Program-made: the position numbers and the translations under genes
The notes under the pieces: generated by a model
The model's input: the letters and a program-made list of their open reading frames with translations, nothing else
The model's database searches: none
What the model was told of the DNA's origin: nothing
Shown: in pieces, positions 6,370 to 64,000 of the stretch
Numbering within the stretch: the first letter of the stretch is position 1
How the letters are laid out: the number at the start of each line of letters is the position of its first letter
NCBI RefSeq assembly: GCF_003014495.1
Contig: NZ_PYGC01000001.1
Coordinates: forward strand, 433,594-497,593
DNA from: Prolixibacter denitrificans
Lineage (GTDB): Bacteria; Bacteroidota; Bacteroidia; Bacteroidales; Prolixibacteraceae
DNA length: 64,000 nt
Direction: 5' to 3'

Positions 6370-6516
6370 AGCAAGGCATAACCAACACGTAGCAACACAC
6401 GACTGACGCGAAGAAATCCATAACGGACCTGTAGCAACACGTCACGCACCTGAAGCAATGCACGACCGACCTGTAGCAACTCACGCCGGACGCGAAGCAA
6501 CGCATCCAGAACGATT
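6370..6516. repeat. Degenerate 21-bp tandem repeat array (seven copies)
   Basis: The word AGCAA (AGAAA in copy 3) recurs at 6370, 6391, 6412, 6433, 6454, 6475 and 6496, always exactly 21 bases apart. A rough consensus is AGCAACNCACGACNGACCTG plus one base. The last base of successive units alternates T, A, T, A, T, A, T, so the true period may be 42. The array fills most of the space between the terminator at 6241-6273 and the 3' end of ispE. No gene is called in this stretch. Function unknown. Confidence 0.85.
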
Positions 6517-62807: not shown

Positions 62808-63064
62808 CTTGAATTCTACTTGTTTAATTAACGACTTTAATCGTCGCAAAATTATGATTTTCAAGCGAGGAATAAAACCAGCATATTGGACCGAATGAAC
62901 AAATTAAGGATTTATTAAACGTAATCTGAAAGCATAATAACGAGCAATTTAAATCGAATGATCTGGAAGAAAATTGGTTGATAAATTCATAAGACAAAAG
63001 AGTTTCCAATCTAACGCTTTCTTGCTATAAGCATTCTGGTAATAACCGCTACATAGAGAAGATT
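62808..63064. other. Gap between gpmI and the GIY-YIG array
   Basis: About 260 bases with no gene. It contains the gpmI promoter box and is otherwise AT-rich with no clear structure. The array begins near 63065. Confidence 0.6.
62847..62854 (-). promoter_or_regulatory. -7 promoter box for gpmI
   Basis: The minus strand reads TAATTTTG (TAnnTTTG), with a leader of about 35 bases. Confidence 0.65.
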
Positions 63065-63164
63065 CATACAATCAACTTCGATAAAAACAAAAGAGGGAAA
63101 GATTCTCACCTTCCCCTCTTTGTGGTGCCACCTGGCTCCGAAGCATCGGAGGAACCAGGACACA

Positions 63165-63458
63165 CTATTCAGAAAATCTTTTCAGCAAACTATTTACCAA
63201 TTCAGAGTCCTCTTTCAGCTTATTAATAAACTTTCTGCTTTTCATTTGCTTGATAAAACGCTCCAACTTCAAGGCCTGTATTCTGTTTTCACACCGTATC
63301 GATAAGTACAACGACCAGTCGTTGGCATATTTCGTACTTGAACCTTCATAAAATCCTGTATTATGCCGACTGATTCGTCCAGCAACATCTACTGTTTCAC
63401 CAACATAAAAACGGTCAAAGGATTCTGAGTAAATGATATATACATAGTGAAGGCCCAT
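63165..63458 (-). CDS. GIY-YIG family nuclease, copy 1
   Basis: A 97-residue single-domain protein of the GIY-YIG endonuclease superfamily (the short YhbQ/UPF0213-like class). The motif is HYVYIIYSESFDRFYVGET (Y5-Y18 region); the catalytic arginine is R28 in VDVAGRISRHNTG, and the metal-ligand glutamate is E67 in KLERFIKQMKSRKF. The start is the ATG at 63458. A frame open to 63554 would include the terminator of the neighbouring unit and is not credible. It is the last complete gene of a tandem array. Host function is unknown; the small class may act on branched or damaged DNA. Confidence 0.88.
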   Translation of the reverse strand: MGLHYVYIIYSESFDRFYVGETVDVAGRISRHNTGFYEGSSTKYANDWSLYLSIRCENRIQALKLERFIKQMKSRKFINKLKEDSELVNSLLKRFSE

Positions 63459-63555
63459 ACCATCAACTTCGATAAAAACAAAAGAGGGAAAGATTCTCAT
63501 CTTCCCCTCTTTGTGGTGCCACCTGGCTCCGAAGCATCGGAGGAACCAGGACACA

Positions 63556-63849
63556 CTATTCAGAAAATCTTTTCAGCAAACTGTTTACTAATTCAGAGTC
63601 CTCTTTCAGCTTATTAATAAACTTTCTACTTTTCATTTGTTTGATAAAACGCTCCAACTTCAAGGCCTGTATTCTGTTTTCACACCGTACCGATAAGTAC
63701 AACGACCAGTCGTTGGCATATTTCGTACTTGAACCTTCATAAAATCCTGTATTATGCTGCCTGATTCATCCAGCAACATCTACTGTTTCACCAACATAAA
63801 AACGGTCAAAGGATTCTGAGTAAATGATATATACATAGTGAAGGCCCAT
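63556..63849 (-). pseudogene. GIY-YIG family nuclease, copy 2, interrupted
   Basis: The same gene as copy 1, displaced by exactly 391 bases. Codon 28, CGA for the catalytic Arg in copy 1, is TGA here (63766-63768), so translation would stop after 27 residues, just before the key residue. Another change nearby turns R31 into Gln and S30 into Arg. Start, stop and the rest of the frame are otherwise intact. A sequencing error is possible, but there are three changes within nine codons, which looks like real decay. Confidence 0.85.
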
Positions 63850-63946
63850 ACCATCAACTTCGATAAAAACAAAAGAGGGAAAGATTCTCACCTTCCCCTC
63901 TTTGTGGTGCCACCTGGCTCCGAAGCATCGGAGGAACCAAGACACA

Positions 63947-64000
63947 CTATTCAGAAAATCTTTTCAGCAAACTGTTTACTAATTCAGAGTCCTCTTTCAG
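63947..64000 (-). CDS. GIY-YIG family nuclease, copy 3 (partial, C-terminus only)
   Basis: The last 18 codons, including the stop, of a third copy lie inside the window and match copy 2 base for base over this stretch. The rest lies beyond position 64000, so it is not known whether this copy is whole. Confidence 0.75.
   Translation of the reverse strand: MKEDSELVNSLLKRFSE

Follow-up and report, generated by a model that had tools for sequence, protein, structure and literature searches.

The tandem array at the end of the window, the 64,000-nucleotide stretch of Prolixibacter denitrificans DNA that was analyzed (G000:C1:433594-497593), is a row of tRNA-linked GIY-YIG nuclease units, which probably spread in the manner of a homing element, with tRNA genes as the targets. 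We put the probability of this reading at about 60%; the cutting of tRNA genes and the transfer of the units are inferred from sequence comparisons. The "unusual hairpin" that the first-pass annotation had reported next to each nuclease gene is the T-arm of a 3' piece of tRNA-Phe. Units of the same kind are found beside tRNA genes of many types in Bacteroidota.

TRF reported a tandem repeat at positions 63050-64000 with a period of 391 bases, 2.4 copies, 97% matches, and 0% indels. The units stand head to tail at an exact spacing of 391 bases, as was noticed earlier, and contain three hairpins (starting at 63131, 63522, and 63913) and three terminators, each of the latter a stem with a T tail on the minus strand (Table 1). 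Five terminator-like sites were counted in the array region vs. 0.9 in shuffled sequences, and no promoter-like site was found in this region. The near-identity of three units was also recognized correctly, but units 1 and 2 differ at 10 of the 391 positions rather than at about nine, and unit 3 is only partially present, as the window ends within the array; the 154 bases of unit 3 inside the window show two differences with unit 2. One nuclease gene had been assigned to each unit. This is true for unit 1, the gene of which is intact, but an in-frame TGA disrupts the gene in unit 2, and the one in unit 3 runs past the window end. The assignment of the small protein to the GIY-YIG family was corroborated (PF01541, E 4.7e-11). 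The 391-base unit offers space for the GIY frame alone and not for any further gene. Elsewhere in the window, at positions 6370-6504, an imperfect tandem repeat with a 42-base period is present.

Table 1. Positions in the window of the components of the 391-base units
Feature	Position	Strand	Remarks
GIY-YIG gene, unit 1	63165..63458	-	97 aa, intact; stop codon TAG within tRNA-Phe piece
tRNA-Phe 3' piece, unit 1	63122..63171	-	anticodon loop to 3' end; T-loop replaced by hairpin
Hairpin, unit 1	63131..63159	-	T-stem CCTGG/CCAGG enclosing 6-bp palindrome stem
Terminator, unit 1	63090..63121	-	stem and T tail; type shared with terminator of second tRNA-Phe gene
GIY-YIG gene, unit 2	63556..63849	-	broken by in-frame TGA
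tRNA-Phe 3' piece, unit 2	63513..63562	-	own hairpin at 63522-63550
Terminator, unit 2	63481..63512	-	terminator-like stem and T tail
GIY-YIG gene 3' end, unit 3	63947..64000	-	gene continues past window into 211 N
tRNA-Phe 3' piece, unit 3	63904..63953	-	hairpin 63913-63941, one mismatch to other two
Terminator, unit 3	63872..63903	-	terminator-like stem and T tail
Distal end of array	63041..63089	-	resembles decayed start of another GIY gene (by eye)

The tRNA-Phe piece aligned to the intact tRNA-Phe with a score of 38, as compared with a maximum of 21 for shuffled sequences. The T-stem and the acceptor end are kept, but a 16-base palindrome takes the place of the T-loop bases that follow TTC. 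The stop codon of the GIY gene falls in the anticodon-loop part of the piece. Thus, the hairpin is not a free-standing structure. A possible existence as a dispersed free element was rejected as well, since a genome search for the 29-mer allowing up to 3 mismatches yielded only the three sites in the array, two of them exact and one with 1 mismatch.

The tRNA genes themselves, which are the common factor of all these loci, are located here outside the window. In the extended locus (L007), a run of 211 N (positions 2595-2805) starts exactly at the window end, and its length matches the missing remainder of one 391-base unit, i.e., of the unit of which 154 bases are inside the window. It is followed by the start of a GIY gene, a terminator, and then two intact tRNA-Phe genes with anticodon GAA on the same strand. 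Hence, each unit consists, in this order, of a GIY gene, an altered tRNA 3' end, and a terminator, and the units are stacked behind an intact tRNA gene.

The corresponding locus in relatives of the same genus was located via the neighboring phosphoglycerate mutase gene (G000-G003, where G000 is the present genome), and alleles with and without the element were found at the same site. Both tRNA-Phe genes (Phe1 and Phe2) are bare in G002. In G003, Phe1 is accompanied by a mini-unit that lacks a GIY gene, and Phe2 is bare. In G001, Phe1 has one mini-unit; five more are found at Phe2, together with an intact GIY unit and a truncated one. In G000, Phe1 is bare, and the array of three GIY units is found at Phe2. 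Copy number at this locus differs between the species of the genus, with none in G002 and, for example, three GIY units in G000. An assembly artefact, a reservation voiced in the first-pass annotation, is less likely, since the units differ from each other and arrays of like kind are present in G001 and G003, each of which was assembled as one contig. The insert at Phe1 of G003 starts with a terminator of the Phe2 type and extends to a tRNA 3' end, behind which the native flank of Phe1 resumes; the insert in G001 is alike. Repair of a break in the 3' part of Phe1 with a unit-bearing Phe2 as the template would be expected to yield such an insert, but so would ordinary, nuclease-free gene conversion.

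Elsewhere in G000, two tRNA-Asn genes precede another GIY gene at a distance of 70 bp. On the far side of this gene, a tRNA-Asn copy is found in which both the anticodon arm and the T-loop carry hairpins, and a terminator-like sequence comes next. At the tRNA-Asn locus of G003, seven GIY copies are present, none of which contains stops. A clean empty site for the tRNA-Asn unit was sought in G001, but this candidate was rejected as the region is rearranged.

For a broader survey, a profile (A2) was built from 24 tRNA-linked GIY proteins. At E 1e-8, it matched in 196 of 295 genomes of the class and in 126 of 198 genomes of a sample of the phylum, two samples that overlap. The linkage to tRNA genes was checked for the best-listed loci only rather than for all genomes with matches. 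The first set comprised 89 loci, taken from the best-scoring listed class matches, which contain 91 GIY chains. An intact tRNA gene on the same strand flanks or lies inside 79 of the 91 chains: it is located upstream within 500 bp in 64 cases, downstream only in 13, and inside the chain in two. An antisense tRNA was found in none of the 91 chains. The remaining 12 chains are without an intact tRNA in the stretch examined, and several of them are near contig or locus ends. The distance between the upstream tRNA and the unit was 21-72 bp in 56 of 64 cases, whereas in the flanks 500-1500 bp away just 2 tRNAs were found in 162 kb. The loci represent 23 anticodon types, distributed over many families, and the layout of tRNA, terminator, GIY gene, tRNA piece, and terminator is frequent in this GIY subfamily in Bacteroidota. 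In a second set of 26 further loci of the phylum sample, 22 have an intact tRNA, again never antisense, and tRNA-like ends were seen by eye in the flanks of the other four. The two confirmed loci in named relatives, i.e., Confluentibacter (L011) and a Bacteroidetes MAG (L012), both adjoin a tRNA gene. In a looser set of GIY matches in the first 61 genomes, a same-strand tRNA was found within 500 bp for only 53 of 94 matches and an antisense one for none; the lower rate is due to the inclusion of other kinds of GIY genes, which are not located beside tRNAs. Since the loci are the best matches to a profile that was built from tRNA-linked proteins, the linkage rate is valid for this subfamily and not for all GIY-YIG genes.

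Among these best-scoring loci, at least two GIY copies are present in 24 of the 91 chains of the first set. An array of ten copies was found at locus L159, in which the nine units that were compared are identical over 457 bases. The earlier suggestion of a recent amplification or a nuclease-driven spread is supported in part by these identical units and by the variation in copy number between species of the genus, with the nuclease as the presumed driver. Units were also observed at contig ends in several of the loci L044, L046, L048, L053, L065, L075, L215, L216, and L294. Assemblies thus tend to end at such units, and the true copy numbers may be higher. In L051 (G038), a row of tRNA-Val-like copies (positions 205-820 and 1246-1946), several with altered anticodon loops, surrounds two GIY genes.

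Seventy-seven loci have a flanking tRNA, and at 63 of them another copy of this tRNA, scoring above shuffled sequences, was found across the GIY gene (62 or 63 copies are significant, depending on the random shuffles). The unit, therefore, has flanks that are homologous to its presumed target. When all significant second copies plus 30 flanking bases were considered, a perfect stem of at least 6 bp was present in 54 of 63, as compared with 13 of 63 intact cognates and 16.5% of dinucleotide shuffles; nine second copies are without such a stem. When both sides were required to be anchored in the tRNA, a hairpin with a stem of at least 6 bp was detected in 49 of 79 chains, although at least one of these hits (L119) resembles an ordinary T-arm. 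The hairpin is located in the anticodon arm in 35 chains, in the D-arm in 10, in the T-arm in 8, and in the variable region in 3, with some chains having more than one. Clean insertions without loss of tRNA bases were seen as well, such as a 20-base palindrome before TTC in Ser copies and a palindrome after GGTTC in a Glu copy. Hairpins at other loci next to GIY genes, which the first-pass annotation had named as possible support for a mobile unit, were encountered many times.

Many second copies are mere 5' or 3' pieces. Often, the acceptor and the T-arm are kept, with the anticodon arm exchanged for another stem. Twelve of 62 second copies are located upstream of the GIY gene, and these are 5' pieces or copies that start at or next to base 1. 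At loci with a downstream intact tRNA, most of the upstream copies are 5' pieces that carry the hairpin in the D-loop. Destruction of the T-loop was considered as a universal mark but rejected, as the T-loop is unchanged in 26 of 50 downstream second copies. In 10 of 62 second copies, every loop covered by the alignment is unchanged. Five of these ten were inspected by eye; in all five, a stretch that could form a hairpin is located in the piece or next to it, the stem being only short in L159.

In the GIY-YIG protein, Y, Y-x-G, R, H, E, and K, residues of the catalytic type, are invariant across the 24 alignment rows. Profile A2 matched the UPF0213 chains 1zg2 and 1ywl and Slx1 chains with E-values from 7.7e-15 to 5.5e-7; values of 7.7e-15 for UPF0213 and 1e-9 for Slx1 were among them. 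No NCBIfam family was found for the unit protein. In a quick tree of 115 GIY proteins, based on 81 columns and with half of the forks open, the isoacceptor label changed 40 times, vs. a mean of 82.4 when the labels were shuffled, and a value as low was reached in 0 of 200 shuffles. In this tree, a single branch separates the Asp proteins from the others, a common group contains a partial mixture of Leu and Ser, and large groups that span several families are formed by Val, Met, Asn, Ala, and Arg. The isoacceptor clades may also reflect old vertical descent at orthologous tRNA loci.

A related system is known from phages. SegB of phage T6 is a free-standing GIY-YIG homing endonuclease encoded beside tRNA genes of many isotypes; its cuts were mapped inside tRNA genes, with the motif RAWTSGAAC in 23 of 83 sites, and it is required for the tandem amplification of segB with tRNA genes (PMC13096335). 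The units described here have in common with this system the location of a GIY-YIG nuclease gene next to tRNA genes of many isotypes and the organization of nuclease and tRNA in tandem repeats. The reverse complement of the motif, GTTCSAWTY, corresponds to what we take to be the consensus of the T-loop. The bases in the T-loop that a SegB-type motif needs are those that are replaced by the hairpin in the units, and we therefore read the hairpin as an alteration of the target in the tRNA copy that belongs to the element. The assignment of the complement to the T-loop is our own reading, the terms "T-loop" and "T arm" being absent from the text of the SegB paper (PMC13096335).

A homing-like mechanism would combine these features as follows. 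The nuclease is predicted to cut the tRNA gene within one loop, which would be the loop that carries the hairpin, i.e., the T-loop in the present array and the anticodon arm or D-loop in other lineages; since the altered loop differs in these lineages, other cut sites are predicted for them, such as the anticodon arm for Val-linked proteins and the D-loop for Arg-linked ones. Repair off a copy that carries a unit would insert this unit, which would then have the intact tRNA on one side and, on the other, an additional piece of this tRNA with the hairpin. The hairpin would make the element's own tRNA copy uncuttable, and it may additionally hinder recombination between the two tRNA copies. Further repair or unequal exchange after cuts would build the arrays, as was shown by others for phage SegB. 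Several observations do not fit easily. The intact tRNA that adjoins each unit retains the presumed target, and the SegB motif is not destroyed everywhere, considering the downstream copies with an unchanged T-loop. The 12 chains without intact tRNA and the nine second copies without a stem of 6 bp are exceptions, and ordinary gene conversion could account for the transfer between Phe1 and Phe2.

If extended to the phylum, the homing reading describes a class of chromosomal mobile elements across Bacteroidota. Each GIY-YIG lineage would be matched to one tRNA isoacceptor, the gene of which would serve it as an address; a hairpin in the loop that is cut would mark its own target copy as immune; the units would grow in tandem at the tRNA, and hairpin-plugged tRNA relics would be left after loss of the nuclease. 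For this generalization, we consider the chances slightly less than even.

Alternatively, a GIY gene may once have landed near tRNA genes, after which RecA-dependent unequal exchange and gene conversion multiplied, moved, and deleted the units, with no part for the nuclease. The nine identical units in L159 could have arisen in this way. Moreover, GIY-less mini-units still multiply, as the five in a row in G001 illustrate, and the broken GIY gene did not prevent unit 2 from being part of an array. The two tRNA-Phe genes are located only ~250-340 bp apart, and transfer between them needs no nuclease. However, such passive growth leaves unexplained why one nuclease subfamily is found at 23 anticodon types in many families, and always on the tRNA strand, why the protein lineage follows the isoacceptor, and why hairpins are present. 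Therefore, we consider it rather unlikely.

Another possibility is that the GIY gene is a resident that is expressed from tRNA promoters, and that the tRNA copy with the hairpin has a use as an RNA, e.g., as a guard of the 3' end of the GIY mRNA or as a decoy for tRNA-cutting toxins. The frequent retention of the acceptor and the T-arm next to an exchanged anticodon arm would suit such a role, as would the lack of a promoter-like site in the array region. Also the dN/dS ratios, all below 1 in four pairs, are consistent with a function in the host: the Phe gene gave 0.20 (G000-G001), and the three pairs of the Asn gene gave 0.58, 0.11, and 0.15. On the other hand, the gene is missing at the tRNA-Phe locus in two of the four genus members, broken and truncated copies are common, and many second copies are reduced to 5' or 3' pieces, which makes a host function improbable.

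The first-pass annotation had suggested that the hairpin would be a recognition site. In an extended form of this suggestion, the nuclease, as a member of the structure-reading Slx1/UPF0213 branch, would recognize the hairpin as its target, and GIY genes would help to disperse short palindromes. The profile matches to UPF0213 and to Slx1, a structure-specific endonuclease, are in line with this idea. Furthermore, TCCCGA-n-TCGGGA palindromes, including the units' own, are abundant in 61 genomes, with 1047 matches vs. 92 for the control, and in G006 117 were found vs. 2 for the reversed control. Their count per genome tracks the count of GIY matches, which includes kinds not beside tRNAs (Spearman 0.72 vs. 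0.12 for the control pattern), but a shared cause could raise both counts. The sequence of the hairpin and the arm in which it resides vary between loci, and the hairpins lie inside second tRNA copies; an altered target site thus fits better than a fixed signal. Outside the units, the placement of the palindromes follows no clear rule. They are barely enriched between complementary flanks, i.e., in 6 of 46 cases vs. 3.5% expected for flanks of at least 6 bases, and in 4 of 46 vs. 1.75% for at least 7. This enrichment is too weak for the palindromes to be general insertions into the loops of inverted repeats, and that idea was rejected. Recognition of the hairpin by the nuclease is accordingly quite improbable.

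Other kinds of GIY-YIG genes were observed in the same genomes. One kind, most members of which have KNKTVLYIGVT-like starts, is located away from tRNAs (L083, L087, L088, L091, L093, L096, and L081). These genes are flanked by interspersed palindromic repeats, such as GTCATTTCGAAGGAGGCACGACTGAGAAATCT, and represent another pairing of a nuclease with repeats. Within G000, a GIY-YIG gene without an adjoining tRNA (G000:C15:56477-56695; L001) is located between frames that, by eye, resemble type I restriction-modification genes, and many GGCTTCGA..CTCAGCC repeats were seen by eye in its vicinity.

Many genomic islands are bordered by an intact tRNA at one end and by a displaced tRNA 3' piece at the opposite end, the configuration also seen here, but insertion of the units into tRNA 3' ends by an integrase from elsewhere is very improbable, as the 391-base unit contains the GIY frame alone and no integrase gene, as loci with a downstream tRNA carry an upstream 5' piece, unlike the product of a 3'-end att site, and as the hairpins would be left unexplained.

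In comparison with known systems, the units show partial resemblances only. They differ from SegB in being chromosomal, ~0.4 kb in size, and matched in lineage to an isoacceptor, and there is no direct sequence match: tblastn at E 1e-3 yielded no match in 50,697 phage records, so that the protein is not close kin of SegB, and a search of PHROG gave a weak match alone (E 5.2e-4). Conversely, segB is a phage gene, for which no hairpin-bearing second tRNA copy is described in the available text (PMC13096335). Group I introns with a homing endonuclease in tRNA genes also tie an endonuclease gene to tRNA genes (PMC3984707). An Rfam cmscan of L007 at the gathering threshold, however, detected seven tRNAs only and no group I intron, and the tRNA-Phe genes are intact and uninterrupted. 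The proteins resemble those of the UPF0213/YhbQ type and Slx1 in their profile matches. Whereas these relatives are known as single-copy genes or repair nucleases, the units are multicopy and tRNA-linked. Integrative elements at tRNA 3' ends share with the units the location between an intact tRNA and a displaced tRNA piece, but the units have no integrase, include 5' pieces too, and carry hairpins in loops. REP/RAYT and other short palindromic repeats are palindromes dispersed in the genome, whereas those of the units are located within the second tRNA copy of a GIY-YIG unit that contains no transposase. In the literature, as covered by titles and the beginnings of abstracts in a collection of open-licence papers, no tRNA-linked GIY units in bacterial chromosomes and no such hairpin-bearing tRNA copies were found. 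Thus, a tRNA-associated, homing-like GIY-YIG gene is known from phages, whilst its chromosomal form, with the match to an isoacceptor and the hairpin-bearing tRNA copy, appears to be new.

If the homing reading is correct, it would explain many small GIY-YIG genes that are annotated without a function, as well as pseudo-tRNAs and some of the assembly breaks at tRNA genes. The units would also constitute a natural set of small nucleases, the targets of which can be read from the adjoining tRNA, and a chromosomal counterpart of the amplification by phage SegB. The tRNA genes of a major bacterial phylum would then host their own homing elements.
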